The position numbers and the translations under genes were made by a program. The notes below the pieces were generated by a model. It did not search any database and was not told where the DNA came from. It saw only the letters and a list, made by a program, of their open reading frames with translations. Positions 6,969 through 64,000 of a DNA stretch of 64,000 nucleotides are shown piece after piece. Position 1 is the stretch's first letter. Every line of letters begins with the position of its first letter. Source of the stretch: Branchipolynoe longqiensis (taxonomy: Eukaryota > Annelida > Polychaeta > Phyllodocida > Polynoidae); assembly GCA_030323885.1 (NCBI GenBank), contig CM059203.1, positions 1,612,001 to 1,676,000 on the forward strand, given 5' to 3'.

Positions 6969-7151
6969 GTGTCGTGGGGGTGATGAAAATGGGAAATACT
7001 GCGCCTAGAGCGGGACTCGAACCCACATCTCTTTGCACTCCGGGCCAGTGTGCTAACCATTACACCACCTAGGCTCCCTGATATCAACACACTCCCCACG
7101 CCTACCTGTCTATGTGGTTACTTGCCTGAGAGGTCAGTGCAGACCACTACA
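6969..7151 (-). mobile_element. tRNA-derived SINE (family 2), copy b
   Basis: Same 183-bp unit as 6648-6830 with very few differences, at an exact offset of 321 bp. The pair could be a tandem duplication of SINE plus spacer or two independent insertions. The near-identity suggests recency. Confidence 0.85.
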
Positions 7152-13055: not shown

Positions 13056-14783
13056 ATGTATTATATCGGACAATTTTACAAGGGGGTCTCCTGTAGTCTT
13101 TTCGTGGACGACTTTGTTTTATATTACAGCGGTGCTAACATTAATGTCATAGAGAGACAGCTACAACCAAGCATAAATGGGATCCATCGATGGTCAGTTC
13201 TGAACGGTTTCAAATTTTCCAAGACCAAAACAGTCTGCATGCACTTCTGCCTGCTGCGTAGAATACATGCGGAACCGGAGCTGACCCTGGATGGGGATCC
13301 CATTAAAGTCGTTGAGAAAACCAAATTTCTGGGCCTCATTCTCGACGCAAAACTGTCTTTTGTGCCACATATAAAGTACCTGAAAACAAGATGCCTGAAA
13401 GCGCTGGATATTCTGAGGGTGCTGTCCAGCTCAGAGTGGGGAGCGGACAGAGATGTTCTGCTCTCCGTGTACAGAACCTTGGTTCGTTCACGAGTGGATT
13501 ACGGCAGCATAGTATATGGTTCCGCAAGGAAATCATATATTGGGCTGCTAGACACGATCCACCACCAGGGACTGCGCTTGGCCCTTGGGGCCTTCCGCAC
13601 CTCACCAGTTCAGAGCCTTTATGTCGAAGCCAATGAACCATCACTTAATAACAGGAGAATCAAACTGGCCATGCAATATGTAGTCAAGATAAAAACTAAT
13701 GCATTGAATCCTGCACACAATTGTCTATTCGAGCAACATGACGAATCCAGGTATGAAGCCAGGCCAAATTACATCCGGCCACTGAGGCTCCGAATGAAAC
13801 CTCATTTGGAGGCCTTGGGCGTGGATTTGGACGTGTTGGAGGATGCCAAAGTCCCAGAACATCCCCCGTGGTCGTTGAGAAAGCCATCGGTTATCCTCCG
13901 ACTCACGGAACTGAGGAAATCTGGGACACATCCACTCGAGTACCAAGGACTGCATGCAGAGATTCAAGGCCAGTTTGCAGACCACCTCTCCATATACACT
14001 GATGGTTCGAAAGACCAAAGCCGGGTAGCTGCTGCGGCAGTCTGCCGACGGGAAAAATTTGGTGTACGTTTGCCTGATCAGAGCTCGATTTTCACTGCAG
14101 AGGCCCGAGCACTCCTTCTCGCTTTGGAGTGTATCGAGGTATCCAACCACACTAACTATGTTATATACAGTGATTCATTCTCTTGCCTCCTGGCTGTTGC
14201 TGGACTGAAAACGAATCACCCTATTCTAGCAACGGTCATTTATAAAATGAACCAACTGACAGTAGATGGGTATGATATCCACCTGTGCTGGGTGCCTGGC
14301 CATGCTGGCATACAAGGAAACGAACGAGCTGATCGGGCTGCGAAGAAGGCCCTGAACTGTGATCTTGAACCGTGTCTGATCCCTCACTCTGATCTGAAAC
14401 CACTAATAGCCACCCACATAAAATCCAAATGGCAACATGAGTGGGATGAAAACATTAATAAACTTAAAGAAATTGAACCATCTGTGGGAAAGCCACCACA
14501 GACTCATGCGGGAGGTCGGCGGGACCAAGTGGTCCTTAGTCGCTGCCGTGTTGGCCACTCGTGGCTTACACATGCTTTTCTGCTCAAGGGGGAACCTCCC
14601 CCTGAATGTATTGGGTGTCAGTCCCCACTGACACTCAAACACATTTTACTAAGTTGCGTTGATTTTTTGGCCCTGCGCCAACGGTTCTACACTGCAGGCA
14701 GTATGCATGACCTTTTTACTAAGGTAAAACAGGAAAACATTTTAGCCTTTTTGAGGGCAGCTGGACTGTACCACCTTATATAG
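13056..14783 (+). pseudogene. RT C-terminus plus RNase H ORF of LINE family A
   Basis: 575-codon open frame. The first roughly 10 residues (MYYIGQFYKG) derive from flanking DNA; homology with the 43 kb copy starts at VSCSLFVDDFV. The RT fragment covers residues about 10-200, RNase H about 310-430 and the C-terminal zinc cluster about 530-550. Length and integrity suggest recent insertion compared with the two frameshifted copies at 22.4 and 41.5 kb. Confidence 0.85.
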
Positions 14784-35400: not shown

Positions 35401-38008
35401 AAGGGTGATCATATGACAGCCAGAAAGCACATTCCATGGGGATGTAGAAATAACTACATTCCAGGACTCACCACCAACCTGGCAGAACAGTACAATGACT
35501 ACATCCAGTTGTACGAACTTCGCTACAGCTACCATCACGGCAGGAGACAAACTTGCAAAGGCACTGGCAATGGAACTGCGGAAAACATGGCAAACACTCA
35601 TTGCGAACACTGACATGACACGCAATGGCAAAAAGGCCTGGTCACTGATCAGGAAGCTGAGCAACAATCTGTGCAAAGCAGATCAGCATATCAATCTAAG
35701 ACCAAATCAAGTTGCACACCAACTCCTCCTAAATGGCAAGCCAGAAACAAACAGTGACAGAGTAACACCATAGGACGTGATCAAGAAAACCACGACTTTG
35801 ATGACGACTTCACTGCCACCAAACTGCAAAATGCACTAAAACACCTGAAAAACGGAAAAGCTGCCAGACTCGATGAAATCTTGACTGACGAGATCAATAA
35901 TGTCGGACCCAAAACGACAAAGTGGGTATTGAACCTGCTGAACACGTGCACAAGAACACACCGCATACCAATACTTTGGAGGCAGTCACGTGTTGTCGCT
36001 CTGCTGAAGCCAGGCCAGGAAAGGACTCATCGAGCCCGAAAAGCTTCAGGCCAATCTCCCTTCTGTGCCACCTCTACAAACTGTACAAATGTTTGATACT
36101 GAACCATCTGTCTCCTATTATCGAACATCTCCTTATCCAAGAGCAGGCTGGATTCTGCCCCGGCAAATCTTCCAATGCCCAGGTGTTGAACCTCACCCAG
36201 CACATTGAAGACGGCTTTGAGACAGGGAAAGTCACCGGCATAGTCCCTCGTAGATCTCTCGGCTGCCTATGACACAGTCAACCATTGACGACTGCTTGAG
36301 AAGGTCTACAACATGACAATAGACTACTGCCTGATATGCATGATGCGCACCCTACTGGAGAACTGCCGCTTCTTCATGGAACTCAGAGGGAAAAGAAGCA
36401 GATGGCGATCACAGCGGAATGGTCTACCACAGGGGAGTGTCCTCACACCACTTATCTTCAACGTGTACAGGAATGACCAGCCGATTCACCCAGGCATGTG
36501 CATCTTTGTGTACGCAGACCACCTTGCCGTCACTACACAGAGCTTGGACTTTGCACCGATTGAAAAAACACTGACTTCAGCTCTAGTCAGACTGTCGGAG
36601 TACTACACCACCAATCAACTCCGCCTGAACCCAACAAACACACAAGTCAGTCTCTTTCATCTGTGGAATCGTGAATGTGGCAAACAGCTCAACATCAGCT
36701 GGAATGGTGTGAACCTTGCCCACTGCAACCACCCAGTGTATCTTGGCATCACACTCGACCGAACATTGTCATATAAAGCACATATTGAAAAGACCAAAAA
36801 GAAAGTCGGAACAAGAAACAACATCATCTGTAAACTAAGAAACTCAAAATGGGGAGCCACTCCAACAACACTCAGGTCATCCGCTCTACCCATGCAAAGA
36901 AACTGAATGCGACACCTGCCGACTGATCAGAGGCTGTCTGAAGCCAACAAACATCAATAGCCTGCCCCTACTCACCGGAATTGCCCCACCTGACATCAGG
37001 AGAGCAGTGGCGAGCCATACAGAATGGATGTGGCAAGCCACAGACCAAGGGCATCCACTCCATGGACATCTCGCAGTGGTGCCACGCCTGAAGTCACGTA
37101 GGAGCTTCATCAGAAACACCAAGCCCATCAACACAACAGTCACAGCGACCCATGTGGAGATGTGGAGGGAGCGACTCGAAGCCCTAGACGCCAGCATGCA
37201 CCTCAACATCCATGCCGAAGAACACCTCCCCGCTGCCACGGAGAACCCCTGGGTAACCTTGAAGGTTCTGAGCTGGTTGCGAACACAGGTTGGCCGGTCC
37301 AGAGTGAACATGCTGAAGTGGGGATACTCTGACTCATCGGAAAGCTGTAACGGCGGCATCAGGCAGACGATGCAACACCTACTGGTCTGCCCCATGATGG
37401 CCACTGCCTGCTCTGCTGCAGACCTGACATTGGCCAACAACATTGCCATCAGTTGCTCTAAACACTGGGAGAGCAGCATCTGAAATAGACAACTGGTGGA
37501 AGGACACAATGAAGAATATTTTTTCCCTTCCATCTCTCAGATAGCCATGTTGACATACACAGACGCAGACAATTGTACCACTACCCACTATCTAATTTAG
37601 AACCAGCTGCTATCTCTGGTTATGCAATGAGTACCTCATAAAAGTTAAGGCATTGAAATCAACTAATCCACAGATTTATAACACAGGCAATAAATACCCT
37701 TACACTAAATTGCATGGCATATAGTTGACACCCTGCTACCCATTGCAATCTTCTTGCTAACCAATACCCAGAACCTACAGAGACACATGATAATATCCAA
37801 ACTGAGTACTCTAGCCAACCCCTCTAAAATACTGGTGCCAAAGCCATCTCAATACATATCAGCTTACATAACCTATTTATCTTCACAGAAACATTTTTGA
37901 GGATTTTAATTGTGTTATTTTGTGTGTTTGAAAAAGAATATATATATATATTGTTTTATTATTTTGTTCATATAACTTTTAACGGTTAATAGCATGACTG
38001 GAACAATG

Positions 38009-41000: not shown

Positions 41001-44000
41001 TGCCCATGTCTTACCGTGCTGGGGAGGTATTCCTGTTGCTGACCCTGTAGGTGTTTGGCGCACTCTCAGTTTACATTATACTGGGAGTGCACCTGTGACC
41101 ATTGCGGCTTCGCAGCCCTGTATGGTTGTCTCTGGCACCGGCGACCACACCTCCGGTCCTCTACCCGTACACCACATGGGCACAAAGCTTGTGCTTGTCT
41201 CTGTGCTCACCGCCACTCGTGATGCACCTACCACCGTACGGACATGAGCATCACCGACTGGCACTGGTAGATAGTTGAGACCGAAGAGCAGGTATTGGTC
41301 GCTCGCAACTAATGGCAAGGCAACGCTATATGCCAAGTTGCCTTCTATACCCCATACTCATGCAACCGCTGTATTCTCATAGTACCAGTGCACTGGCAAT
41401 CCCTCAAATTGTGCCTCTCGAGCAGCTGGTAGCACCTCCATTAACCTAGGTTTCCCCAGGCTGATTGATTGATTGGTGATTGCTTTACACCGTGTCGGCA
41501 GCATAGGCCATATTCACGGTGAGGAATGTTTGTTTTTTGTTCAAACCATAGCTTCTACATGTGAAAGCAGACAATCAATTATGTGCCAATAGACACTCAT
41601 TAAATTAGAAAGCTCACAATCCTATATTTGTGGTCATGGGAAACAAATTCCCATAGAAAAAGAAAAGGTTTATTAATAATTGATAGAATCTATTTAGTAA
41701 ACTATATGAGGTGGTACAGTCCTGCTGCCCTCAAAAAGGCTAAAATGTTTTCCTGTTTTACTTTAGTAAAAAGGTCATGCATACTGTCTGCAGTGTAGAA
41801 CTGTTGGCGCAGGGCCAACAAATCAACGCAACTTAATAAAATGTGTTTGAGTGTCAGTGAGGACTGACACCCAATACATTCAGAAAAGCAGAAAAGCATG
41901 TGTAAGCCACGAGTGGCCAATACGGCAGCGGCTAAGGACCACTTGGTCCCCCCGACCTCCCGCATGAGTCTGTGGTGGCTTTCCCACAGATGGTTCAATT
42001 TATTTAAGTTTATTAATGTTTTCATCCCACTCATGTTGCCATTTGGATTTTATGTGAGTGGCTATTAGTGGTTTAAGATCAGAGTGAGGGATCAGACACG
42101 GTTCAAGATCACAGTTCAGGGCCTTCTTCACAGCCCGATCAGCTCGTTTGTTTCCTTGAATGCCGGCATTGCCAGGCACCCAGCACAGGTGGATGTCATA
42201 CCCATCCATTGTCAGTTGGATCATTTTATAAATGACCGTTGCTAGAATAGGGTGATTCGTTTTCAGTCCAGCAACAGCCAGGAGGCAAGAGAACGAATCA
42301 CTGTATATAACATAGTTAGTGTGGTTGGATACCTCAATACATTCCTACGCGAGAAGGAGTGCTCGGGCTTCTGCAGTGAATATCGAGCTCTGATCGGGCA
42401 AACGTACACCAAATTTTTCCCGTCGGTAGACTGCCGCAGTAGCTACCCGGCTTTGGTCTTTCGAAGCATCACTGTATATGGAGAGGTGGTATGCAAACTG
42501 GCCTTGAATCTCTGCATGCAGTCCTTGGTACTCCAGTGGATGTGTCCCAGACTTCCTCAGTTCCGTGAGTCGGAGGATAACCGATGGTTTTCTCAATGAC
42601 CACGGGGAATGTTCTGGGACTCTGGCATCCTCCAACACGTCCAAATCCAAGCCCAACGCCTCCAAATGAGGTTTCATTCGGAGCCTCAGTGGCCGGATGT
42701 AATTCGGCATGGCGTCATACCTGGATTCGTCATGTTGCTCGAATAGACAATTGTGTGCAGGATTCAATGCATTAGTTTTTATCTTGACTACATATTGCAT
42801 GGCCAGTTTGATTCTCCTGTTGTTAAGTGATGGTTCATTGGCATCTACATAAAGGCTCTGAACCGGTGAGGTGCGGAAGGCCCCAAGGGCCAGGTGCAGT
42901 CCCTGGTGGTGGATTGTGTCTAGCAGCCCAATATATGATTTCCTTGCGGAACCGTATACTATGCTGCCGTAATCCACTCATGACCGAACCAAGGTTCTGT
43001 ACACGGAGAGCAGAACATCTCTGTTCGCTCCCCACTCTGAGCTGGACAGCACCCTCAGAATATAAAGTGCTTTCAGGCATCTTGTTTTCAGGTACTTTAT
43101 ATGTGGCACACAAGACAGTTTTGCGTCGAGAATGAGGCCCAGAAATTTGGTTTTCTCAACGACTTTAATGGGATCCCCATCCAGGGTCAGCTCCGGTTCC
43201 GCACTCATTCTACGCAGCAGGCAGAAATGCATGCAGACTGTTTTGGCCTTGGAAAATTTGAAACCGTTCAGAACTGACCATTGATGGATCCCATTTATGC
43301 ATGGTTGTAGCTGTCTCTCTATGACATTCATGTTAGCACCGCTGTAATATAAAACAAAGTCTTCCATGAAGAGACTACAGGAGACCGCCCGCTGTACAGC
43401 AGCAGCAATACCATTGACCTTGACCCCAATAAGGTTCACGGCCAGTATGCTGCCTTGAGGTACTCCTAGTTCCTGTGAGTGTAGGCTGGAATAGGTACTC
43501 TTGACACGGACGCCAAAATGCCTGACGGCTAAAAAGTTCCTGATGAAAATTGGCAAGTGGCCACGAAGCCCAATCGTATGAAAATCCTCCATGATGCCAT
43601 GCTGCCACGTTGTGTCATAGGCTTTTTCGAGGTCGAAGAAGACAGCCACAATGTGCTCCTTCTTAAGGAAAGCATCTCTCATGAAGGTCTCCATGCGCAC
43701 CAAATGGTCGAGGGTGCTGCGGCCCCATCTGAAGCCACATTGGAGGTTGGACAGGTGGTGTCCTGACTCCAGTAGCCAGACGAGGCAGTTGTTTACCGAC
43801 TCCCAGATGTTGTTGAAGAGTTGAAGCAACAGTCTCAGTGCATGATCAGGAAGATGTTTAAAAAATTGATAATGAATTCCATCAGGTCCAACTGCTGTGT
43901 CATGCGAGCTTTCCAAAGAACACCTCAACTCACCCATATTGAATGGGGAGTTGTAGTGCTCCTCGCCATCGGAAGAAAAGTGCAAGAGCTTTTGCTCTTG

Positions 44001-47000
44001 GCGTTCCTTGACGGCCCGAAATCCCAGGAGGCAGTTTGCCAAAGACAAGTTTCCAGCAAAGGTGCGAGCCAATTCTTCACTTATTTCGTCGAGTGATGTG
44101 AGAATGGTGCCGTTGTGTTTCAAGTGCTGGACTACAGAAGAATCACCTCCCCTTCATTTGATTCTCCTGATCATTGTCCATACTTTGCCCAACGGCGTCT
44201 GCATGGTGATGCTAGAAACAAATTGTTTCCAACACTGCCTCCGCGCTTCTTTGATTGTTCTGTGAGCGCGAGCGCGCAGAATTCTAAAGTGCGCCAGATT
44301 TTCAGCGGTCGGCCTCCTGTGGAATTTACGCTGAGCTTTCTTTTGTTCCTTAATAGCCGTAACCATGGAGGCATCAAATGTTAGGGCGTCGCCGAGGTCT
44401 TCGGAACAGTTTTCTCTGTGAAACATCTCAGCATCTCAGTGAAGGCGTCGATGTCACTGATGTCTGGAGTGAACTCCTTGCGACATAGGGTCTGGAAGGT
44501 GGGCCAGTCGGCTTTTCAAAGCCGCCAGCTCCTCTCTCGCTCTACGGGAGATGCCCCCCCCGCAATTAAGAAAAATTGGGAAGTGGTCGTTCCCGGAATG
44601 TAAATAGAACAGAGAGTTACAGTCTTATGCAGCATCAGACGAACAGCTACAGCCTGTAGTTTTGTGTCTAACGCCACTGGTGTACATACCACATCACGTC
44701 TGACCAAGATGGAGGAGCCGCCAGCGGCTAGGTCTCCATCTGGTGCGTGCTTGTTATGAATGGTGTAGCCTTTAAGACTAGAACTCTCAGAAGCTTTTAT
44801 ATAAGTTTCTTGTAGGCAAACAGCAAGTGGATTGAGGTTGCAACAAAGAAGAGACATCTGTTCGATGTTGCTCCTAAAACCTTGGCAGTTCCATTGAATA
44901 AGAGATGCACCTTTCACTGTCATTTTGGAGCAGTGACAGGTGTTCTCCCCCATGCCTTTGGTTTGAGGGAGAGACTTCGACTGCGGGTTTCCACAGTCTC
45001 AGGCATCTCAATATCAGCCAGCGCCCGATATCTATTTGATGTTAAGTTTTTGGAGATCGATGACCCCCTGGACGTTTTGTCCGTAGGGGTCAAAGATCCC
45101 TTCGGAACTCGGTCCGACAAATTGTTCTTCTTCTTTTTGGGCATCGCCGGCTCGGCCAGCGTCTGCACCACAATACTATTATTACAATTATTACTTTTGG
45201 TTGAAACTGGCGTTGGATTTGGGACTGGGGTGAAGGCAGTGGGCTTCCCTCCAGTCAACCACATCAGTTCAGTCTGGCATTCAATTGTCCTGTTGGAGGC
45301 TTTCGCTGCCGCAGCATAGCTCTTGGTGATTGGCGAGGGAGTATTCGCCTCAGCCAGCCTTCGAGCTTCTGGGTAGCTTAGCCGCTTCTCAGTCTTGATC
45401 TGCTGAATTAGCTTTTCTTTTTTCCAGACAGGACAGTCTTTAGATATGGCCATATGGTCACCCAGGCAATTGGAACATTTTGCCTGGTTTTGACAACAGG
45501 TGTTGTCGTGACCTTTTTGACTGCAATTAAAACAGATGATTTCATTTTTGCATCTATCCTTGCCATGACCAAACTTCTGGCATTGGAAGCATCGAAGTGG
45601 ATTTGGGATGAAGACATCCACATTCACACTAAGGTATCCAATTTTCAAATCCTTGGGGAGAAAAGGCTTGCCAAACGTGAGAATATATGTCCCTGTTTTT
45701 ATGGACTTGCTATCCCTCTTTATAACTATCCTTCGTACGTTTAACACTCCTTGAGACTTGAGCTCATGTGCTATCTCATCCTCATCAACACCATCAAGAT
45801 CTCTAGTCCAGATTACTCCTTTGCTAGAGTTGAGAGTTCGGTGCTTGCACGTAGCAGATTGTTGGCATGCGCTTTCTTAGCACACTCCACCAGAATATGT
45901 CTACTTTGTAGTTTCTTCACGTCTTTGACTGTGCCAGCGATTCCCATAGTGCCCTTGTGAATGGCAAATGGGGAAAGTTTGGCAACTGATGCCTCGTCAT
46001 TCAATGATTCAATCATAATGAACCTCGATTTTGATGGCTTCTAGTCTCTTACCCCAGTTCCGCTTCACTTCCGACCATTGGTTGTTTGTGCGTGCTATGC
46101 ACTTCTCAACAGCAGCGATCCATCTGGCCACGGGTGGGCGCACTGGTGGTCTAGCTATCACCACCAGCTACCATATCGCATTGATGGACTGTACTTCCCC
46201 CTGGTCCCTCACCTGGGCACGTATGCATGACGCGGTGTTAGCGAGCCAAAACTGGTTTTGGCGGGGATTTCTAGGTTAGCGGCGAAAACTCAGTATGCAA
46301 GGATGGGTGTTAGCGCAAACACACTGAGTGTAAGCTAACACCGCGTCATGCATATGGGCCCAGCACTCCGTCCTGGCTGAAAATATCCCCCTCGGGAACC
46401 AGTCCGTTGGTGAGTATGGCCATGAAGCTGCCGAGCAGTGCGACCGGCCTCATTTCGATGTTGAAAACTGTGGTCATTCTCTGAAATATGTCCACATATC
46501 AACGATTCACGACAGGTTTTTAGTCATTCATTGTAAATACCCCACATTATTGATACCCATATATTACATTAGTAAACCAATAATTCTGAACCCGTTGCTG
46601 AAAATATAATTGAATGTAATCAAAACAATGCGCAACACTTTTGAACACTCATTCAAAATATATAACCATAATCAACAAATTGTGTTCCAGATCCCGGTCA
46701 TAATGCTAATTTCTAACCTGTATTTCTGTAATTAAGCACTGCTAGATGTATATCTGTTTGGTCAGCTGTGCATTTCTTTATCATGTTTTTGATGGTTTGG
46801 GCAAATCTTTTGACTTGTCCATTGCTACATGGTTATAACGGGCTGGAGTATATGGGGGTGAATTGTTAGTGATTTGCGAATATTTTATATTCTTCAGTCC
46901 GAAATTGTGGTCCGTTGTTTGAAGCAACGTAACTGAGTATGCCTTGTCGGGCAAAGTTTTGTTGTAGCGATTCTATTACTGTGTGTGAAGTGGTATCGTT

Positions 47001-50000: not shown

Positions 50001-53000
50001 GTCAGTAAGTGCCCAACTGTTGTTAATTGTTTTTGGCATATTTTGGATTTTGTTTTATTCAGCTTAAAGCCGACTGCTCGGGCCCTTTCTAATACAGCTT
50101 TCAGCCGTATATTGTGCTCAGTAATAGACAAACCGCATATTAAGATGTCATCTGTCACAATCCCAACCACGCTCAATTGTTCCATCTCCTGTATGAAGAT
50201 GTCTCCTGCGGTTTTTACGCCAAAGGGTAGACTGGTGCACTGGAACCACCCCCACGGGGTGTTAAATGTACACATGCGTGAGCTTTCTGGATCTAGTTGT
50301 ATTTGCCAGTATCACAATTGGGCATCTAAAACTGAGGTAAACCTTGGTTTTGTGGTATTTGCCAACATTTCTTTGATCGTCTTAGTATGAAAGGGACCCC
50401 TTTTAACAGCCCGGTTGAGCTTGGTAGGATCCAGGCAGATTCTGATTTTATCTGGCTTACGTATGAAAGTGATCGAGTTCACCCAGTCGGTGGGTTCTAT
50501 CTGTTCCTCGATCAATCCTAACTCTTTATACACTTTATCTCTGATACCATATGGGATTCTACATGGCGGATCTATTCAGGGTGCAACATTGCAATCAACA
50601 TGTATAATGGCATTTGTTTTGATTAGACCTAGTTCTTTTGCATCTGGGCTCATGCACTGTTTTGGTATGTCACTGTTCTCTGTTTTTTGCTCCGTAATGT
50701 CATGAATCCTGGCTAACATGTTTAGGTCGACACATGCATGTTTGGCTAGTATGGGATGCCCCACATTGATGACTTGGAACGTGATCATCTTGTCCTTGAT
50801 CCTGAGTCGAGCAGCACCTTCGGGGATAATCCGATTTCCCGAGAATGTTACCAATGTACACTTGGTTGCTTCCAGATAATCACACCTGTCATGAATGTGA
50901 TGTGGGAGTACATTGGCCGCCGACCCTGGTCCAGTATAAATCGCACCAGAACGTTGTTTATTGAGATCGTGGCGAACCAGAGATCCATCTTATTATTGTC
51001 CTCGATGCCTAATTCACCGATGAACAGATTCGCAATCAGCACATCTATATAAGACTCACCTCATCTGAATTTTCCGGTAGCTGATGGGATTCCTCCATCT
51101 GTACCTCATGGACTGGAGTTTGATGGCTTTGATATACCTTTGTGAAGTGTCCCATCTTCTGGCATGTGATGCATGTCTTCCCTTGAGCTGGGCATAGACC
51201 TTTCCTATGCGTGTAGCCACAGTTGCCGCACGTGGTACGACTGTTGTTGTTTGGTTGGGGGGCGGTCTCCAAGATGGCTTCCAAGATGGTGCCGGTGGGC
51301 ATGGCGCCGGTGGCCATGGTGCCCGTGCGCCAGCTCCTTTGAATATGTTGTCTACTTTGCTTGCTTCCTCTCCTGTTGCTTTACCTTCCAGCTCTGCTGC
51401 TTCAAATTCGCTCAGTTCACATATCTCTATGGTCTTCTGCAATGTTAGGTCGTTTGTTCGCAGCAGCTTACTGCGGAGTCACAAGTTTTTCCCTCCTACC
51501 ACAATCCTGTCCCGTAGCAGGGAGTCTTTGGTCTCACCATAATACCACAATCTTTTACCTTATCCCTCAGTGCTGTTAGATACGTGGCCATACTTTCCGA
51601 CCCCTGATTGTGGATATTGAACTTACATCATGTTATTATGATGTTAGTTTTCCCAGTGCAGTATCATCTGAGGCGCAGGGGTCGAGGCTGTCATACCCAG
51701 TGTATCCTGGACCATACGGGGCTCCTGGTGTAGGTGCAGTGTCCGGTGGGACCTCACGGGGCTCCCTGATAGTATTTCACGGTGCTCCCTGACTGGGACC
51801 TGATGGGGCTCCCTGTTGGGGACCTCCGGGGCTCCCTGAGTAGGACCTCACAGGGCTCCCTGATGGTGGTTGCTAATCACCATTGTTATTGTCGAGTTCA
51901 CAGTTGTCGGCAATGGGTTCCGGGCCGCCGACGATATAAAAGCTGTCGTAATTCTGTCTATAGAATCTGCTGAGTGGCTCCCAAGAGGACCCGGAGAGCC
52001 TTGTGAGGATGGCAAGCGCAGCTCGGTTGTCAGACAGGTTGTGTGGTGGGCCGAGGAAGTCTCGGATGGCGGTCCTGTCAAAGGCCACACATGATACTAG
52101 GATGTGGGCGACATTGAAGATTTGGTCACCGCAGGGACATCGTTGCAATGCAGGGGTGTCGATGCACCGCCTGTATCCAGTCCTGAAGTGCGTGACTGCC
52201 TGTTGCATGGACGCAGAGAGGTTTCTTGGGACAGGTAGGTGCTCCCTGACATTTTCATGCCAGGCCCAACTGATGGAGTATGGGTTCCTGATGGTGGTGC
52301 GGAGGGAGGCCTCCCACAGGGCTTTGGTCGCTCTAGCGTGGGTGGCTTTGAGCTTGGAGAGAGAGTGGCCTATGATGAGGTCGATCTCAGGGCGGCAAGA
52401 ACCATCCAGAGCAGCTGAGTGGGCCTGGTCATTACCGGAAAGTCCTATGTGGGAGGGAACCCAGGCCAGCACTGTGTCGAGGAGAGCTTCATGCCTGGTG
52501 GTGATGGTGTTCTGGATCAAGGTGGCCAGAGAGTGGCTAGCTCTGTGGTCCTTGATCTTGCGGACTGCATTGAGTGAGTCAGAGACTACGATGCAGCTGC
52601 AGTGTCGCAGGTGGGTCAGTGCATGGTGAATGGCGGCGAGCTCTGTATCGAGGGTGGAGGAGTAGTCCATGACCCTGATAAGGCGTCTAGCCTGCCCGTC
52701 TGGTAGGAAGTGTCCAGCCCTGGTTTGGCCTGTGTCAGGGTTGAGCGAGCCATCGGTGTAAACCGTGGTGGCTTGAGGGAAGTCCTCTTTGGCCCGGGCA
52801 ATGGTTTCCTTTGCCAGGGTTCTGAGGACTATGGTCGGGTAGTTGGCTTTGCTTGAGCAGAGGCTGGTGAGCGTGACCTTTGCCATCCTGTGGGTTTGTG
52901 TCAGGGTGCGGATGGCCGTCTTCGTTCCCCAGGAGAGGCCGAGGCGCCGTCTTGGACCATTTTGTAGGTAAGAGGCTGCGCTGCGGTAGAAGGTGGGTGG

Positions 53001-56000
53001 CCTACAGACAGGGCTTGGCAGAGGTGGTTTGCCAGCAGCTGTTGTCTGTGTAGGTGGAGTGGTGGGAGGTTCACCTCAAGGAGGAGGATCTCAACTCTGG
53101 TTGTCCTGCGAGCTCGGGTGATGAGTCAAACTGCCTGGTATTGGACTCTTTCCAGGGTGAGGAGGTCTTTGGTCAGGGTGCCACTGCGAGGGAGGCGTGC
53201 CCTACGGTTGTCTCTGCAGTAACCAATCCAGGAAATGGTGGTGGCTGCATAGTCGTAGAGGGCCCGCACAGCCTGTTTGTAGAAGAGACTGAGCACTTCA
53301 GCTGGAGCTCCCCAGTTGAACCCAGAGATTCTAGTCATTAGAAGAAGTCTCTTGTTCATTCTGGAGGCCAGGTGCTTCACAAGTGGTCTCATGGTGAGTT
53401 TGTGATCAAGCCTGACTCCCAGGTAGTCGAAGGTGTCCACCCATTCGACGTCCAGGTCTGCTGCACGGAGTGGGTGGGGAGGCTGATTGGTGAACATCAT
53501 CATGGCTTTGGTTTTGTTCGAGGATATTTTGAGCCCCAGATCACGTCAGGTGTCGCTTAGTAGGAGCAGGACATCCGCCATGAGGAGGGTCACGTCCCTG
53601 GTATGTGAGCAGACTACAGCAATGTCGTCTGCATAGCACAGGGTCTTGACATGACAGGTGGCGCTCAGTAATGCCTGCTCTCAGTCACCTTATGAGGGCA
53701 GTGACTACAGCATTAAAGAGGAAGGGGCTGAGGACAGCTCCCTGGGGGACGCCATTTTTTAGATGGTTGAGGGGAGAGGTGCTGCCCTGGAAGCGGGCGC
53801 TGGCTCGCCTGTCACGAAGGTAGTTCTTCACGAATGCCAGAGGCTTCCCGCTGACTCCCAGCTCAACGATGGAGGCAAGGACCACGTTGTGGTCGACCAG
53901 CTCGAAGGCCTTCTAAAGGTCCAGGAATATGACAGCCACGCCAAAGCCTCGTCCACTGGTGTGTACTATCTCCTCGAGGAGGGTGAGGACGGCGTGCTGC
54001 GTGCCGCGTCCACCTCGGAAACCCAACCAGCTCTTCAGGGAAGCCGCTGGCTGATATACTTATTGCTTACATATTATGTGAAAATATCTGCCATTGGACA
54101 GGTGTTTCAATGGTTTTATTTTGGTCACACCCTTTGTGTGAAAATGTGTGCAGATATTAGGTGAGAACTTTATTCCAACATGGACATTGGCATGGTAGGC
54201 CAATTTAAGTGTGATTGACATTGTCTGTCAATACATATGTTGGTATGGACATGTGCTAAACACCCGATTAGTGTTTCAATGTAAGATTAAAAGTAAAATA
54301 CTTTACAAACATGTTTTGGTAATGTGTAATGAATGTCAATCATAATAAATCAATATTATAAACATTTAAAAAAGAAATCATAAAATTCCATCAAATTGTA
54401 TTTGATCGAAACATGCACCTGTCAGTCACCTGGATGTTGGCGGATTTGCTGGGAAGGGAAAAAGTGGACCAATATGGGACCTCTATCAGATTCTTATAAA
54501 CATTTGTTTTATAATTTGTCACATAAGTGCTGCACATTATCTTTTATAGTGTCTCCATACATTAGATTTGTTACTTTATTGTAATAAACTAGACATTTTG
54601 TGTGATTTATGGTTTAGACTGCATCCATGGGAGCCATGTGGGTCCTATATGCACAGAATAGACAGTTTGGGACAATGTTGATCCCATGTAGTTACATCCA
54701 CATGGGTTTGGCTGGATATAACCCAGATGGGCCCCATTTACCCGTGTTTGCTGGGATAATCTTAGGAAGTCATTGCTTTCTTTATTCAGAACCGGAGTTT
54801 TAGCAAACATACTGACCGTCATTGCTGGGGAGCATGACAGATCTGCTACTGAGGGGACAGAGCAAATCTATGATGTGGCTTCCATCGTCATACATGCACA
54901 GTTCAACTATACCTCAGGTGTGAACGACATTGCCCTGCTCAGGCTGGCCAGTAGCATCCACTACACAACAGCCATTAAGCCAATATGTTTGCAACTGAAT
55001 GATGCCACCCCTCGAGAAACTTGCGACGCCACTGGGTGGGGTAGAACTGGAGGTAGGAAATGCTCTGGACTATTCAATCAATTCAGATGCTTCCAATTAA
55101 ATATGTGGTTCTAGAATTAAAATTGTGTGTCACTGCTTTGAAAAGAATATGTTTAATTTTATTTGGAATAACAAGAACTTTTAAGGTTAAAGACGTATGT
55201 ATAATAATATAGTGCTTGGAATGGATGGAGTAGAGTCACAATTATAGATGTTATTCTAAATCAGGCAGTAGCATTTGTGATTTGTTGGACATTTACATAT
55301 ATATATATATCAATTATACTGATAATCAGAGCCAATGCAAACAATATCTAATGTTATTACATTATTAACTGTGCATCCCACAGCATTGAGTGTTCACCTA
55401 CTATATCGGTTATATGTGTCTTTTCTCACCCTTACTTTGGATGCATATAGAGCATATAACATCAAACGTGTTGATGGAAGTGCCTCTTCAGATCATCAAC
55501 CATACAACGTGCCGTAGGACATTCTTGAACGCCTCAGAGATCACTTCAGCCATCCTTTGTGCAGGCTATCCTAAAGGTGGCAGGAATATATGCACGGTTA
55601 GTATAGGCCTAGACCGTGTCTAGGCATCCATATGCATGCATATGTCAGTGTTTGTAAATAAAGAAGGTGTCACCAAATTTCATTGACAGAAGTCCTGGCC
55701 TGTGCCCACTCTCCCCTGTCTCATACAAGGACAGAGCTCGCTTTTCTTTGTCCATAGCCCGATTCAGGAAAGGTTGGCCCTTTCTCCTCAATGAATCCCC
55801 CACCCCTTCCATGTATCATTAGCTATTGGAAGTCAAATATATGGTCATTCTGACAGCATTTGCCATAGTCTTTGATGAACCAGTTGTGGGCCACTGGTTG
55901 GAACGGAAAATAGCCCAAACTGCAAATGTGTCCACTGTGCAGGATTGATAGGATGACTGAGACCATCACAGGTGGACATGCTACTGCCTGAGCTACGTCC

Positions 56001-56506: not shown

Positions 56507-57704
56507 TATCGGGAGACTTGACACATATGCGTTGATCTGCCTGAGATGAGCAGTCTCATGTCTGCATCACTGTAGCAGCTGAGGAGAGTCATGAGGACTT
56601 ATTGACCCTATATATTACAGTTTGACCCTCAGTTTTAATTAGACCCTAAATACCTCCTAGAGAATAGGTAGTTCAAGTAAAACAATTGTGTTATGTAGAG
56701 TTGTCTTGGTTATATTAGTGTTCATATAATGATATATAGGGCCTACATTGAATCGGATATATTCTTCTTTTGCTTATTTATTACAGGTTCGTTCCAGTCA
56801 GCCCCATAACAAAACCTCGACCAGACTGTCAATGTGACCTGCCTCACCACAATATTGGTTATGGGATTGATGCGGAGCCTAGCTTTAACCCATGCTCTGC
56901 ATAGTATATATGTAATCCTAGAAATGGAAATGCACACCACAAGAGGGGCATGAATGTAAAGTGTATAACAGGGTATAATATCCATAGCATGACTTGTGAT
57001 AGCTTCAAATGAAGTTCAAATTTAAGCCCATACTAATGGAATTAACCGGGAATTAAATATGAGGCTAAGCCAGCAATTTGTTTCGCTAACAAGATGAATA
57101 ATGTATCCCATTCATGAAAGCCTTCCTTTGTTAGGCTTCTGTATTGCATTAGTTTTATCACAAACATAATATCCTCTTTGAGAAGGAACTTCACTCTCCA
57201 GTGTGGAAGGAAATCTATCACATGATGCAGCATGTACTAGGCATCCTGAATTATTGTTCCATAGTTTTGAGTCTCTGTCATATTCTTTGATTGATTGCTA
57301 TAATCTACTTTACTTAGTTTGAAGTAACATTTATTCTAAATGGCTACCTTTGGACAGATCTGAAGTGGAAACATGACAAATTAATTGTTGACAGTCACAT
57401 CAAAAGTGTATAGGTTCTATTACATTGACTTAGTATCCCTTTTTATGAAGTAAGAAATGGTTAATAAGTGCACCAGTATCTAAGTTTGATACATAGGCTC
57501 AAATCTATGGGAAACTTTTACTTTTTAATGTGATGCTTTTATTGGACTATGCAGCTTTAACTTTAGATGAGTTTCAGGATGAGGCCATAATAAAGAAATC
57601 AATGGGAAAACAACATGTATGGCTAAGCCATGGGTTATGACTAATAACAAGAAATATATAATTATCTAACTAAGAGAAGATTACTCTGGTGTATCAATAT
57701 GAGA
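56507..57704. other. 3' flank of protease gene; nothing else recognised
   Basis: Presumably 3' UTR and intergenic; AATAAA at 57589-57594. No coding region or repeat boundary recognised. Confidence 0.5.
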
Positions 57705-57762
57705 TTGTTCATGATGGTCTACCAACATGGATAATTTACACGCGTACGAGGAGCCCTACCCT
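57705..57762 (+). repeat. Left inverted terminal repeat of element D
   Basis: TTGTTCATGATGG..., CCAACATGGATAATTT and GAGGAGCCCTACCC in order; the reverse complement lies at 59288-59345 with a handful of differences. Confidence 0.8.
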
Positions 57763-58011
57763 TCCTCCCCTACGACCCCCTCTCCCCCTGCACGACTACC
57801 CACGCCTCCTCACCCCTACCCTACCCGACAGCCACCCCCACTCCCTCTACCCCTACCCCTCTACCCCGACGGTGGCGCCATCTGAACTAGAATTCACGAA
57901 CTAAAAACCCTGCCGGAGACAGCCAGAACTACCACACGAGACTCTGACATCACGATCTCGCCTGGCGAGACCCACACCCTGCCTGGCCTATATAAACGAG
58001 CAGCCGCCATC

Positions 58012-58743
58012 ATGGTTCGCATGCACGCACCAGGAAAGGGTATCTCCCAGAGTGCCCTCCCGTACAGACGTAGTGTGCCGACTTGGCTCAAAGTGACCAG
58101 TGACGATGTCAAAGAGCAGATCTTCAAGCTGGCCAAGAAGGGTCTCACCCCATCACAGATCGGTGTGATTTTACGTGATTCGCATGGGGTGGCCCAGGTG
58201 CGTTTTGTGACAGGCAACAAGATTCTTCGCATTCTCAAGGCGAAGGGCCTGGCCACAGACATCCCAGAGGACCTCTACTACCTCATCAAGAAAGCGGTCG
58301 CCATCCGGAAGCATCTGGAAAGGAGCCGCAAGGACCGTGACTCCAAGTTCCGCCTGATTCTGGTGGAGAGCCGGATTCACCGCCTGGCGCGTTACTACAA
58401 GACACGCAAGGTGCTCGCCCCCAACTGGAAGTATGAGTCGTCCGTAATCAAGCGCGGGGTCGTTCGGTCATCCCTCCACCAACCAAGACAGGCCCCACCC
58501 ATAACACCAACAACCTTACTCCGCATCGTCAACCATTTCCGAGCCGTGGGCCCCCGAGCACGGGTGTTCACCGCAGCAATACTCATGGGGTACGTCACCC
58601 TACTGAGGCAAGGCAACCTGCTCGTCACTGGCCGGAAAAGACGACCCCGGCCACACCATACAAGATGCGGACGTCCACGATGCGGGTACCCACCTTGTCC
58701 TCCACGTCCGATCCACCAAAACCACCAGACTGGCTCGCGATGA
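58012..58743 (+). CDS. Ribosomal protein S13 (uS15) fused to tyrosine recombinase
   Basis: 243-codon frame. Residues 1-144 are 40S ribosomal protein S13 in full except its last about 7 residues: RMHAPGKG start, [38 protein letters not shown] and NWKYESS are family hallmarks. There are no introns, whereas animal RPS13 genes normally have several, so this is a retrocopy. Residue 2 is Val, not the usual Gly. At codon 145 (58444) the frame passes without a stop into [10 protein letters not shown]..., which matches the recombinase of the 59.4-60.4 kb element and includes its first catalytic Arg in TLLRQGNLL (about residue 199). One extra A near 58637 shifts the frame; the rest of the recombinase continues at 58640-59110. 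Not the functional ribosomal gene. Confidence 0.85.
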
Positions 58744-59110
58744 ATTCTCCATCGTGGTCCGAACGAACGAGCAACCCAACATCTGCCCCGTCCGAGCATG
58801 GCGGGCGTACAGGAGGTCCGCTCGGCCCGCCCCACAGGACCCGGCGTTCCGGCTCCCCAACGGGGCCCCGCTCACCGCGCCCACGCTCCTGGCCGCTCTC
58901 AGAGCTGCGCTCCGAGCCGCTCGCCACCCGTGCCCGGAAGACTACACCCTCCACAGCCTCCGAAGAGGAGGAGCACAGGCCTGTGCAAGGGCCGGCGCAT
59001 CCATCGACGAGGTCCGGCGGCTGGGGAACTGGCGGTCCTCGGCAGTTCACGCATACGTCCCCAAGGCGGCCTTCCCCGCAGCGACACAGGCCCTCCCCAC
59101 ATTTGGTTGA
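58640..59110 (+). pseudogene. Element D recombinase, C-terminal catalytic part
   Basis: After the +1 shift, the frame reads [26 protein letters not shown], a loop, YTLHSLRRGGAQ (HxxR motif) and LGNWRSSAVHAYVPKA (Trp and nucleophile Tyr), ending FG-stop at about 59110. All catalytic positions of a tyrosine recombinase are present; only the single-base shift separates them from the upstream Arg. Confidence 0.8.
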
Positions 59111-59193
59111 GGGCCTGAGTCGAACTTACCTTAAAAACCACATTGATCTGACATACTCATTGCCTTTTACATGACTTTGTGATTCAATAAAAT

Positions 59194-59378
59194 TCCATAA
59201 CATGGGCTCCTTGTTCGCGTGTTTAATTGTTCATGATGGGCAACCAACATGGATAATTTACGCGCGCACAAGGCAACAGGTGGCAGCAGGGTAGGGCTCC
59301 TCGTCCGCGGTCAAATTATCCATGTTGGCGTACCATCATGAACAATTAAACACGCGAACAAGGAGCCCATGTTATGGA
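59194..59378. repeat. Perfect 46-bp inverted repeat at the D/B junction
   Basis: 59194-59239 (TCCATAACATGGGCTCCTTG...) is the exact reverse complement of 59333-59378; further imperfect pairing (CCAACATGGATAATTT) continues inward. It combines the internal complementary region and right terminus of D with the 3' end of the opposite-strand element B. Confidence 0.9.
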
Positions 59379-59454
59379 TTTTTAATGACAACAAAGTTTA
59401 AGCAAGTACAGTAAGTAAGTTCGGTATGACAGTGTGAATGTTCGACTCAGGCCC

Positions 59455-60417
59455 TCAACCAGATAATGTGAGGGCCTGTGTTGGTGTGGAGAAGGCGGAC
59501 TTGGGGACGTAGGTGTAGACGGCGGATGAACGCCAGTTTCCGAGGTTCCGTACCTCTTCCAGTGAGGCCCCGGCCTTGGCGCGTGCCTGGGCCCCTCCCC
59601 TCCGGAGGCTGTGTAGTGTGTAGGCGTTGGGGTCGGGGAGGCGTGCGGCGCGCATGGCGCTTCTGAGGGCAGCCAACAAGGTGTTTGCGGCCAGTGGGGC
59701 TCCGTTGAGGAGTAGGAAAGCTGGGGCGTCCGGAGGCGGTGGGTAGGTCGTCTTGTAGGCTCGCCAGGCTCTCACCGGGCATAGAGATGGTTGTGGCCCC
59801 GGCTGGACGTTGATGTAGAAGGCGTCCGCTGGGGACCTGGTGGTCTTTGTCGAGCGGATGTGGAGGACGAGGTGGGTTCCTGCATCGCGAACGTCCCGGG
59901 CCTTGATGGTGTGGCCCGGATCGCCCTTCCGGCCTGTGACGAGGAGGTTCCCTTGTCTGAGGAGTGTGGCGTAGGCTATTAGTAGGGCTGCAGTCATGAC
60001 CCTGGCCCCGGGGCCGGCCGCCCGGAACCGCCTGAGGATGTGGTGGAGGAGCTCTGGTGTAATTGGCGGGGCCTGGGTCGGCCGGTGGTTGGAGGACCTG
60101 ACTACCCCGCGCTTGACGACCGATACTGCGTACGTGTCGAATGCTGCTGTTGCTCCACCAACGAGGCTGACCCACGTCCGGGCCCCGCTGAAATAGTTGA
60201 GGACCGCCGACGGGGACCTCAGGCCACGATCAAGGGCCGCGAGGAGGCCCATTAGGTCGTACTGTGAGGGCCTGCGAGGGTCGTAGTGGCGTTCGCGTGA
60301 ATGTTGGAGGTATCTCACGACCTGCCGGGTCTTGTTACGCCAGGTCCCCGCCGCCAGTCCTGCGTTGAATAGTGCGGCAATCCGGTCCTGGTCATCGTTG
60401 CAGGAGGCTGGGGATAG
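59455..60417 (-). CDS. Element B tyrosine recombinase (intact frame)
   Basis: Open from about 60417; first Met at 60318 (287 codons). The N-terminal helical core-binding domain runs from TWRNKTRQVVRYLQHSRERH to SAVLNYFSGARTW. The catalytic domain has TLLRQGNLL (Arg), HTIKARDV..GTHLVLHIRSTK, YTLHSLRRGGAQ (HxxR), LGNWRSSAVYTYVPKS (Trp, Tyr). This is the reference for the truncated recombinase in D and shows that D lost the N-terminal domain, exactly where RPS13 is joined. It would integrate circular element DNA by site-specific recombination. Confidence 0.82.
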   Translation of the reverse strand, partial: LSPASCNDDQDRIAALFNAGLAAGTWRNKTRQVVRYLQHSRERHYDPRRPSQYDLMGLLAALDRGLRSPSAVLNYFSGARTWVSLVGGATAAFDTYAVSVVKRGVVRSSNHRPTQAPPITPELLHHILRRFRAAGPGARVMTAALLIAYATLLRQGNLLVTGRKGDPGHTIKARDVRDAGTHLVLHIRSTKTTRSPADAFYINVQPGPQPSLCPVRAWRAYKTTYPPPPDAPAFLLLNGAPLAANTLLAALRSAMRAARLPDPNAYTLHSLRRGGAQARAKAGASLEEVRNLGNWRSSAVYTYVPKSAFSTPTQALTLSG

Positions 60418-60441
60418 AAAGCAGGTATTACTATCCCCAGT

Positions 60442-61488
60442 CTAGACGGTATTTGGAATGACAGTGTTAGCGTGCCTGACTCTGACGCGTTTTAGGTGCA
60501 TTCGGGAGCATATTGTGTCTGCCTTCTCTTGGGCGGCGGGGTCGAAGGGGGCCCTGCTCAGGGCGTCGGCGAGGACTAAGTCTTTCCCTGGTTTATGGAG
60601 AATCCGGATCTCGGTTGAGTGGAGCGCGGCAAACCTCCAGAGCTCCCTCGCGCAGGCGCAGAGCACCGGGTCCCTTCCGGCTCCAGACGCGAGTACCGAT
60701 TGCGAGGTCTGGTTGTCTGTGTTGATCACTATGACAAAGTCTTGTGGCTTGAGAGGGGCAAGGGCGTGGAGGGCTACGACCAGGTTGATGGCCTCCAGCC
60801 TGTTTATGTGGTGGCCGCTCGCTTTGAAGTCCTCTGGGTATGCCTCCGAGTAGTACGCCTCTTGGGAGTGGGCCCCTCCGGCCTGGAGGGAGGAGTCACA
60901 CTCGATGACCCAGGGTGTTTTGGGAGGGTCTTTGAGGAGCACCACGCCGTTGGTGGTCCTGGCGTAGTCGGCGAACCACGCCAGGTCACGTTTGAGGTCC
61001 GTGGTGACTGTGTGCCTGCCGGTGCGAGGGGTCTCCCGGAGAGTTGTCAGTATCCGGTTCATGAACCTTCTTGCTGGGGTGACGCACCTGGCGATGTGCT
61101 GCAGCCGCCCGACTACTCGCTGTAGTGTCGCTCTCGTTATCTTTTGGGAGGCCGCCACCTCGTTGCACTCCTTGATCACGTCCGCAAGTTTATCATCCGG
61201 GATGCATACTGTCATCTGATCGGTGCAGATCTCATACCCGAGCCAGTGGATCCGATGTGTGGGTGGAGTGCACTTGGTGGGCGCGAGGGCCAGGCCCAGT
61301 GCCGCCATGATTTTCAGCATGTCGACATATGCTGCGTCAGCGGCCTTCTTTGTGGCCGCTACCCCGACGAAATCGTCTAGGTAGCAGAGGGCGAAGTGCC
61401 CTCTTTTCCTGAGTAAGTAGGTTACGGCATTGGTTGTGCGGGCACAGGCCAGTGCAGAGGTCCTGCACCCGAATGCCGGGGCACACAC
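60442..61488 (-). CDS. Element B reverse transcriptase / RNase H (N-terminally truncated)
   Basis: 348-codon open frame. RT: FGCRTSALACARTTNAV, CYLDDFVGVAA (motif C), LGLALAPTKCTPPTHRIHWLG, thumb (QRVVGRLQHIARCVTPARRF). RNase [66 protein letters not shown]. Motifs A and B of the RT lie beyond the truncation. Typical DIRS-order pol. Confidence 0.82.
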   Translation of the reverse strand: MCAPAFGCRTSALACARTTNAVTYLLRKRGHFALCYLDDFVGVAATKKAADAAYVDMLKIMAALGLALAPTKCTPPTHRIHWLGYEICTDQMTVCIPDDKLADVIKECNEVAASQKITRATLQRVVGRLQHIARCVTPARRFMNRILTTLRETPRTGRHTVTTDLKRDLAWFADYARTTNGVVLLKDPPKTPWVIECDSSLQAGGAHSQEAYYSEAYPEDFKASGHHINRLEAINLVVALHALAPLKPQDFVIVINTDNQTSQSVLASGAGRDPVLCACARELWRFAALHSTEIRILHKPGKDLVLADALSRAPFDPAAQEKADTICSRMHLKRVRVRHANTVIPNTV

Positions 61489-62037
61489 CTCCCCGGGCTT
61501 CCGGCTCTGCCCCGTCGCTGCCTGGACCGCTGCCTGTTGCCCTGGTTCCCGCGGGCCCGGCCGACCCGGCCTTCATCATGCCCTCGGGCTGGCCCCTCGA
61601 TCCTCGGACTCTCACCGGCCTCCTGCGGGGCGCCCTCCGCACCCTCTCCATCTCCACCCCCGACAGCTTCACACTCCACAGCCTGCGACGGGGTGCCGCC
61701 CAGACCTGCCAGAGGGCGGGAGTACCCCTCGCAGACACCTGGACCTCCGGGACGGTACATGCCTACCTCCCCCACATCGCCCCCTCTGCCGCCCGTCATG
61801 CCCTCTCCTCCATTTTGGTGGAGGGCTCTTCGGGGCCCCCCTTCTCCCCTGATGCTGAAAATTATTTCTCATTATATTCTCGTTATTACTTGCCTCGATG
61901 AACATTAATTGTCATTATATTGTCCTTTTATTGCTTGCATTGTCCTTCTTGTACTTTCTGCATTTGCTTATGTTCTTGCACCTGAATAAAGTGTTTTTAT
62001 TCCACCCCTGCTTAATCTTCCTCCTTCGCTGCGTATC
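61485..62037 (+). mobile_element. DIRS-order element C: recombinase 3' end and terminus
   Basis: Plus strand: recombinase C-terminus beginning near LCPVAAW (frame break), then PAFIMPSGWPLDPRTLTGLL, FTLHSLRRGAAQTC (HxxR) and SGTVHAYLPHIAP (Tyr), then TTTTGGTGGAGGGCTC, an AT-rich UTR, AATAAA at 61985 and a CTTCCTCCTTCG end shared with element A. Abruptly joined to element B at about 61485, so a chimeric junction. Confidence 0.75.
61985..61990 (+). promoter_or_regulatory. Polyadenylation signal of element C
   Basis: AATAAAGTG; the matching inverted signal of element A lies near 30219-30236. Confidence 0.5.
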
Positions 62038-62759
62038 AGTTTGAAATCACTTTGATTATCAAGGTTACTCTAAGAGATATTTTAAGTTCAAAGATGTTCA
62101 AGTAATTTTGGCATGCACGTCAAAGCGCTGTCACCGTAGACTTCAGCAGTGACAAATTCTATTAAATTGACTTGGTATCCTCTTTTATGCATTAAGAGAT
62201 GCTTATTAGTATGTATGTTAGATGTGTAGAATCAAATGAAGAGTTCAGGCACAAAACCACATAAATGGGAATCCAAAAATTGAATTAAAATAAAATATAT
62301 TTACCTAATATAATTCTAATTCTCACTAATTCAACCATTCTTGAGACAAAATAATTATGAAGTAATGAACACAGAAATATGAATCTAACAATTTAGCCTT
62401 TTCAAGGTTTGACTTCCATGTTTATCCGAATTTTTGGATTGGTGTGTATGGGGTTTACCATCTGAACTCCTCAAATCTAGATAAATGTTCTGGTTTTGAA
62501 AATGTGATGTTTTCATCGGACCATACCATTTTTTTATCTCCAATAACCTTCACTTAATACAGTCAATTATGGCATGCACATGGGTTTAACATTAGCCATA
62601 AACGGGAATTGAATGGACTACCTATTTGTTGTGCTTTTGTTGAAATCAAGCTGCGCTCGTCATGAAAACAAGCCGACATACCGTACCACTATTCCTCTGT
62701 CCTACACTTCCATATTTGGATAATAAAAGTCAATGTATTTTGTTATTCCATTGCCTTCT
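62038..62759. other. Intergenic; nothing recognised
   Basis: AT-rich, no supported gene or repeat. Confidence 0.5.
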
Positions 62760-63638: not shown

Positions 63639-64000
63639 CAGTCACACTAAGCCGGACGAGCCCCAGATTTTGAGCCGGACCACCCACGGACCAATGGCCC
63701 GAACTGTCCCGGACCGCCACGGATAAAATCACTGTTTTCGTCGATTTTTGCCTCGCAGTCACACTTTCCCGGACGAGCCCCAGACGAGCCCCGGACCAAA
63801 GGCCGGGACCGCCCCGGACCACCCCGGACCGCCCGGTAACCAACCCTCGGAATGTTCCCGGAACGGCCCCGGACAAGCCCGAACTGGGCCGGACCGGCCA
63901 CTGACTAACCTGGACGAGGCCGGACCACCCCCGGACTGCCCCAGACCACCCCCGGACCACCCCCGGACCACCCCCGGACTATCCCGGATCACCCCCGGAC
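63639..64000. mobile_element. CAGTCACAC-type element, left part (runs off the window)
   Basis: CAGTCACACTAAGCCGGACGAGCCCC at 63639 recurs as CAGTCACACTTTCCCGGACG at about 63756, followed by CCGGACC-rich sequence and, from about 63920, 11-bp tandem units ACCACCCCCGG. It looks like the terminus of a non-autonomous DNA transposon with subterminal repeats. The frames here are repeat artefacts. Confidence 0.5.

Follow-up and report, generated by a model that had tools for sequence, protein, structure and literature searches.

In a 64,000-nucleotide stretch of Branchipolynoe longqiensis DNA (the window; C18:1612001-1676000 within the 1.85 Gb genome assembly), we found an insertion at 57704-61483 in which a spliced cDNA of the host gene RPS13 lies among parts of tyrosine-recombinase (YR) retroelements. 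The element is a composite of families, consisting of an A repeat of family X at the left, the RPS13 cDNA, a YR-B1-A2 part of family Y and an inverse third fragment, of family Z. We consider it probable, at roughly 0.7, that this copy is a recent by-product of retrotransposition in which a spliced host RPS13 message came to lie between two YR element parts. It looks like a one-off, broken by-product rather than a working new gene, and it suggests that YR retroelements are able to pick up host genes. The reading builds on the pieces and their joints, the spliced state of the cDNA, its youth, a left end that falls on an element terminus and copies of the target site that lack the insertion.

The RPS13 (uS15) cDNA occupies 58002-58443 (+) and holds the last 10 nt of the predicted 5'UTR followed by codons 1-144 of 151. 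Its frame, which starts at 58012, matched Pfam PF08069 (E 3.9e-31) and PF00312 (E 2.9e-12). The source gene lies at C8:58052694-58064431 and has four exons (58052694-58052738, with its start predicted from a pyrimidine-rich start, 58056795-58056922, 58063246-58063415 and, to the stop codon, 58064297-58064431), and each of its three introns has GT and AG ends. All three introns are missing from the window copy, and 441 of its 442 nt equal the joined exons, the sole difference being a synonymous one at 58171. Absence of introns together with near-identity to a gene of the same genome marks the piece as a processed copy. The last seven residues (TASAMVA), the stop codon and the mRNA 3' end are absent, in agreement with an earlier note on this DNA that had described the frame as complete but for its last seven or so residues; also absent are 12 nt from the start of the predicted mRNA, whose 5'UTR is predicted to be 22 nt long. 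When the whole genome was searched at the DNA level with 58012-58480, all 32 candidates were scored and gave 32 matches: one was the window, three on C8 were each the size of an exon, and the remaining 28 were short alignments, of about 40 bases, with element copies. No second RPS13 retrocopy was found by a protein search of the genome, in which the four matches (six of six candidates scored) were the window copy and three gene exons.

Both ends of the cDNA join element sequence through short overlaps. At the 5' joint, which was absent from the earlier note, the cDNA starts 10 nt before the ATG, directly behind the promoter repeat of the other family; the two sequences share AGC at 58002-58004 (+), where X reads GAGCAGC and then TCACTG, and the 5'UTR of the gene reads CCAACCA and then AGCCGCCATC. 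At the 3' joint the overlap is TCC at 58441-58443 (+) rather than the TCG/TC proposed before: the gene reads GTCGTCC/ACA, the element GGTCTCC/GTA and the window GTCGTCC/GTA, with the frame kept. Under a uniform-base model, the chance of at least 3 shared nt is 5% for one joint and 0.26% for two independent random joints. The flanks of the RPS13 piece, ...GAGCAGC of X on one side and TCCGTAATC of Y on the other, come from different families and are unlike each other. Neither poly-A nor 3'UTR is present at the 3' joint, and no target-site duplication surrounds the RPS13 piece. Moreover, this joint lies within RPS13 exon 4, away from its splice site, and we therefore ruled out splicing as the cause of the fusion.

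Downstream of the cDNA, the window carries the C-terminal part of a family Y tyrosine recombinase, from residue 108 on (58441-59110, +). The in-frame fusion of intronless RPS13 to this recombinase at 58443/58444, the central claim of the earlier note, is present: Pfam identifies the frame from 58012, and near-identical YR copies dispersed in the genome identify what follows. The resulting chimeric open reading frame of 243 amino acids (58012-58743, +) contains 144 RPS13 residues, 64 recombinase codons and an out-of-frame tail of about 35 residues, the recombinase frame being broken near 58637. Within the recombinase part, 58754-59107 gave a weak Phage_integrase match in Pfam, at E 4.2e-4 and short of the curated cut-off, and 58444-58635 had no Pfam match. 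Measured on the stop-to-stop frame of one Y copy (L017), the recombinase has lost the first 107 of 328 residues. The loss of an N-terminal part, as previously described, thus stands; its exact coincidence with a domain boundary is at most putative, as the structure predicted for the related recombinase of Z reached a mean pLDDT of 33.8 and was set aside. The Y part is followed by a B1 repeat (59105-59228, +) that matches B1 and B2 of Y copies, and by the first 48 bp of an A2 repeat (59226-59273, +), which match the first bases of A1 in both L013 and L018 at 100%; beyond 59273 the sequence no longer agrees with Y.

We compared the Y part with 10 Y copies (L011-L020), taken from 28 short genome matches. 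Over about 837 nt, identity was 99.5-99.8% to nine of the ten and 97.9% to the tenth. Across 58444-59270, the window differed at one position from six copies, at two from two, at three from one and at 24 from one, with no substitution private to the window against the 10 fetched copies. The one-base length change near 58637, already noticed in the earlier reading, is private to the window copy, being absent from all ten relatives.

The left part of the insertion is a family X A repeat, the left terminal and promoter repeat (57704-58004, +), which starts with the terminal ATT at 57704-57706. Among the best 40 of 634 candidates, it was 94-99% identical to 39 other full-length matches, and 33 of those 39 start at the base matching 57704. 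Its identity to the A repeats of Y copies was about 85-90%, in pieces. Both A repeats were visible and of X type in six of the eight fetched X loci, the other two showing one A repeat, and A1 was of Y type in the two of ten Y loci whose A1 was fetched; X and Y are thus different families. A TATA-like box at 57989-57996 (+), found by direct reading and present in both X and Y copies, lies 23 nt before the RPS13 ATG and may serve as part of a putative element promoter. In all nine exact finds of the promoter string (five of the eight fetched X loci), X copies read GAGCAGC and then TCACTGCTCC. Because X copies continue differently after GAGCAGC, the RPS13 piece occupies the place of all element sequence from the end of the X promoter repeat to a point midway through the recombinase of Y.

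One further locus, L052 (C8:59207226), was considered as a second capture beside an X promoter and rejected: by eye, a 13-base stretch, TGCTCCTGGCACT, is repeated on either side of its insert, which was read as a retroposon. This insert of several hundred bp lies in the X-family leader, after an A repeat ending at 3529, and has a CAATACAA-like tail. Another X copy, L053, shows a second B2-like end (at 4337 and 4685) with nearly the same flank, a 348-bp duplication over its right end.

The earlier note had called the element DIRS-like. That it is built of YR retroelement parts was borne out; membership of DIRS1 in the strict sense was not, in view of the two families, the split direct repeats and, for Y, the lack of a methyltransferase match. 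Passages of PMC9210276 and PMC4157794 describe Ngaro elements as having split direct repeats in the order A1...B1A2B2, and part of PMC3266345 describes the internal regions of DIRS1 as inverse-complementary to the termini. In L013, a Y element of 2,458 bp, A1 lies at 1-422, B1 at 1730-1853, A2 at 1851-2294 and B2 at 2335-2458, with B1 and A2 overlapping by the 3-bp ATT; the same A1...B1A2B2 layout is found in L053 of family X, and the internal repeats are direct copies in both (95-100% in L013, 96-100% in L053). The YR gene lies upstream of B1 in Y copies, and the internal pair is downstream of YR in families X and Y, as in Ngaro. The B1/A2 junction is itself near-palindromic (76-82%), so weaker inverted matches accompany the 95-100% direct ones; in L053, 54 bp of this junction also match the inverse complement of the left terminus at 80%, a weaker match than the direct one. 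The internal regions are hence direct repeats of the termini rather than the inverse complements of DIRS1 in the strict sense.

The domain content of family Y points the same way. The fetched stretch of L017 holds an open reading frame without a Pfam match (cut by the locus start), a reverse transcriptase frame (RVT_1, E 1e-10) and the 328-codon recombinase frame (Phage_integrase at E 0.0013, short of the curated cut-off). No match to the methyltransferase domain of DIRS1 was found at E<=1 in the three frames of this one Y copy, the first of them cut by the locus start, and a diverged domain could escape such a search. Reverse transcriptase and tyrosine recombinase without a methyltransferase is the Ngaro content. 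The X and Y repeat layout, together with the Y domain content, therefore appears to be that described for Ngaro rather than for DIRS1. L013 and L018 have A1 and the recombinase but just a short internal stretch and no reverse transcriptase; they are internally deleted and presumably non-autonomous.

At the right, the Y part is followed by 3 nt of filler (59274-59276) that fit neither family here, and then by the Z fragment in inverse orientation (59277-61482, -), which includes a partial A2, B1, the YR gene and an RNase H/reverse transcriptase region that is cut off. Over 59277-61480 the fragment showed 4-11 differences per copy to its six closest copies, with no private substitution against these six; three further copies were about 94% identical, and the right break of Z was read against L043 only. 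The Z recombinase sequence matched an integrase family of PHROGs (E 1.4e-4 and 1.4e-5), and a comparison with solved structures returned 18 chains, mostly Cre, at E 0.26-0.97, none of them significant. With A2 stopping at 59273, the B2 repeat of Y absent and the YR frame broken, the copy is not a complete mobile element. A near-palindrome at 59184-59388, with 90-bp arms (88%) and 25 nt between them, is formed where Y and Z repeats meet tail-to-tail; both A2 repeats are cut near its centre, the pattern that loss of the middle part of a longer palindrome would leave.

The insertion sits in a repeat of which two other copies, L061 on C11 and L060 on C14, carry the site free of the insertion. The left flank (57496-57703, +) was 96.6% identical to L061 over 208 bp and 94.2% to L060 over 190 bp, and both matches end exactly at 57703. 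The right flank (61484-62100, +), a relic of an older YR element that we call W, was 95% identical to the C14 copy and 92% to the C11 copy. Both flanks lie on the same strand in L060 and L061, with 294 and 279 bp between them, respectively, so that about 280-295 bp of target were lost at the right. At the position of the left joint, C11 reads GAG/ATTATGTGG, with an ATT core, and the element end in the window also starts with ATT; C14 reads GAG/ACTATGTGG (GAG/ACTATG), with ACT as its core, against an exact ATT core. Six of nine other A1 ends that we fetched have ATT before GTTCATG, the remaining three having ATC, ATG and ATA, and AT follows 13 of 23 distinct B2 ends in a count by eye. In a model for DIRS1 set out in part of PMC3266345, recombination takes place through a 3-bp core and duplicates no target sequence. 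From the flank positions in L060 and L061 and the comparison of element ends, 57704-61483 is an insertion with a normal element end at its left and an abnormal end at its right.

Elsewhere in the window, 54773-55114 matched a trypsin-like exon or fragment (Pfam PF00089, E 2e-16), and other retroelement fragments with reverse transcriptase or RNase H domains lie at 51873-52886 (-), 13056-14783 (+), 42978-44123 (-) and 22470-23174 (-). Two tRNA-Ser(GGA) genes were predicted 321 bp apart (6680-6753 and 7001-7074, -). A 238-bp unit is repeated in three tandem copies with 92% matches at 34852-35557, and an array of CCGGACCACCC-like units of about 11 bp occupies 63650-64000 and continues past the window end.

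Changes private to the window copy were few over about 3.77 kb: one substitution in X against 19 copies (the nearest of which has 3 differences in 301), one difference in RPS13 against one gene (on either side of which the change may have fallen), one indel in Y against 10 copies and none in Z against six. The parts of the insertion therefore look very young and of similar age, in line with the recent origin previously suggested. Youth alone explains the identity of the copy to RPS13, which consequently says nothing on constraint, and the alternative of constraint on the RPS13 part raised in the earlier note is needless. We found only one copy of the fusion in the 1.85 Gb assembly, with no other locus sharing its junction. 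A genome-wide look for the pattern TATATAAACGAGCAGC with any base but T behind it gave a single hit, the window locus, and an equivalent exact-pattern test with the Y promoter gave no occurrence in the genome. Such patterns test only the present switch point, so other captures could exist elsewhere.

Template switching between spliced RPS13 mRNA and element RNA, the mechanism that the earlier note had put forward, is our best reading of these data: the introns are gone, the joints have 3-nt overlaps and the order of the pieces fits. X, RPS13 and Y are ordered and oriented as one continuous minus-strand synthesis from Y over RPS13 to X would leave them. A family Y element would have been under reverse transcription, and the enzyme would have been within the YR gene, heading for the template's 5' end. 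At the 3-nt match TCC, the enzyme would have jumped onto the spliced RPS13 mRNA and copied it almost to the cap, and a second jump, at the 3-nt match AGC, would have brought it to an A repeat in RNA of family X. This A repeat includes sequence upstream of the TATA-like box, which makes the internal A2, located within the transcribed region, its most likely source. The elements' recombinase would then have joined the left end of the cDNA at the 3-bp ATT core in the older repeat. The right side would have been resolved abnormally, leaving a cut Y A2, the 3-nt filler, an inverse Z and the loss of about 280-295 bp of target. The Z fragment may have arrived in the same event, and the order of the template switches is likewise presumed. 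Because of the filler and the lost target, the Y/Z joint suggests end-joining, either at once or via a later deletion between elements in opposite orientation.

The right end departs from that of a normal element, so that some or all of the structure could have arisen through the end-joining of cDNA fragments. In its full form, in which separate X, RPS13, Y and Z cDNAs were ligated at a break by microhomology or non-homologous end joining without any template switching, we regard this as rather unlikely. The 3-nt filler and inverse orientation at Y/Z and the loss at the right flank are common in break repair, and the 3-nt overlaps would suit microhomology joining as well; but the left end falls exactly on the element terminus, at an ATT core that is present in one of the two empty-site copies, and X, RPS13 and Y share one orientation in the order expected for one cDNA. 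We consider it very improbable that a LINE made a processed RPS13 pseudogene inside a pre-existing element. Although the intronless state and the nearly complete 5' end would be explained, such a later, simple insertion conflicts with the lack of poly-A, 3'UTR, mRNA 3' end, last seven codons and flanking target duplication, on which we rejected it; moreover, nothing is left of the element sequence that should lie between the two joints, and the genome search gave no other RPS13 retrocopy. A chimera of the assembly also has very little to recommend it. The locus is single and was judged from the assembly alone, but spliced cDNA is not expected in genomic reads, the left end coincides with an element terminus at a site seen elsewhere without the insertion, and the contig is 48 Mb long.

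As to function, a selected RPS13-recombinase fusion driven by the element promoter is scarcely credible. Its joint is in frame, the host start codon and a 10-nt leader are kept and a TATA-like box lies upstream. However, only one copy was found, a private indel breaks the frame 64 codons after the joint and the youth of the copy makes its identity uninformative on constraint. The ATG also lies only 23 nt past the TATA-like box, which makes its transcription uncertain, as the usual start point might miss it. With the frame broken, the 3' repeats incomplete, a single copy and an identity that youth explains, the sequence does not support a working or mobile fusion gene, and the chimeric, possibly mobile gene of the earlier note found no backing.

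Template switching with recombinase joining, our preferred reading, has parallels in several known systems. In retroviral transduction, a spliced host coding sequence replaces internal genes, in frame with an element gene and behind a promoter repeat. The window copy is similar in its replacement, its in-frame fusion and its promoter repeat, whereas no infectious particle is known here, there is no sign of re-mobilization and the right-hand repeats are incomplete. For LTR retrotransposons, capture of host mRNA by template switching comes from the work of Tan and co-workers, as summarized in part of a review (PMC5408686). Their captures and the window share a host mRNA piece within an element, short similarities at the switches and a 5' repeat or promoter; the window differs in its element, which is of the YR type, in having flanks from two families and in a left joint that probably lies at a 3-bp core and is not integrase-type. 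Among LINEs, passages of PMC2104539 describe tripartite chimeras made by double template jumps, and passages of PMC13174262 report that six of 17 LINE-1/mRNA chimeras end at splice donors. These chimeras and the window are alike in uniting several transcripts in one cDNA, but the LINE examples described there have target duplications, and those of LINE-1 also poly-A, whereas the window has neither and joins within exon 4 instead of at a splice donor. Families X and Y resemble the Ngaro elements covered in parts of PMC9210276 and PMC4157794 in their A1...B1A2B2 layout, and Y also in its reverse transcriptase and lack of a methyltransferase match, a likeness of layout and domains; the window copy, unlike a Ngaro element, is a chimera with an incomplete right end.

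On the passages cited, then, host mRNA capture by template switching is already known for LTR elements and LINEs, and what sets the present case apart is the YR retroelement. A limited literature search, which is a thin basis, found no report of host-gene capture by YR retroelements. The relevant passages of PMC9210276 and PMC4157794 do not mention capture, template switching or chimeras, those of PMC9210276 likewise mention neither host gene nor transduction, and those of PMC3266345 make no mention of template switching.

More generally, we hold it somewhat more probable than its opposite that YR retroelements capture host mRNAs, with the reverse transcriptase switching among element RNAs and a cellular mRNA within one cDNA and the recombinase inserting the product. 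If this is true, an element promoter came to stand upstream of a nearly complete host coding sequence that is fused in frame to an element gene, an arrangement that would amount to host-gene transduction by a retroelement order without such reports in our limited search. To our knowledge, RNA copying in YR retroelements and the frequency of recombination among them are mostly inferred from structure. Here, the known source gene, element families and empty site fix the joints to the base and show recombination between element families, and an insertion this recent offers a direct means of studying how templates are switched and how the recombinase joins ends. The window copy itself is probably a dead end, but it shows a route by which host genes may enter YR elements.
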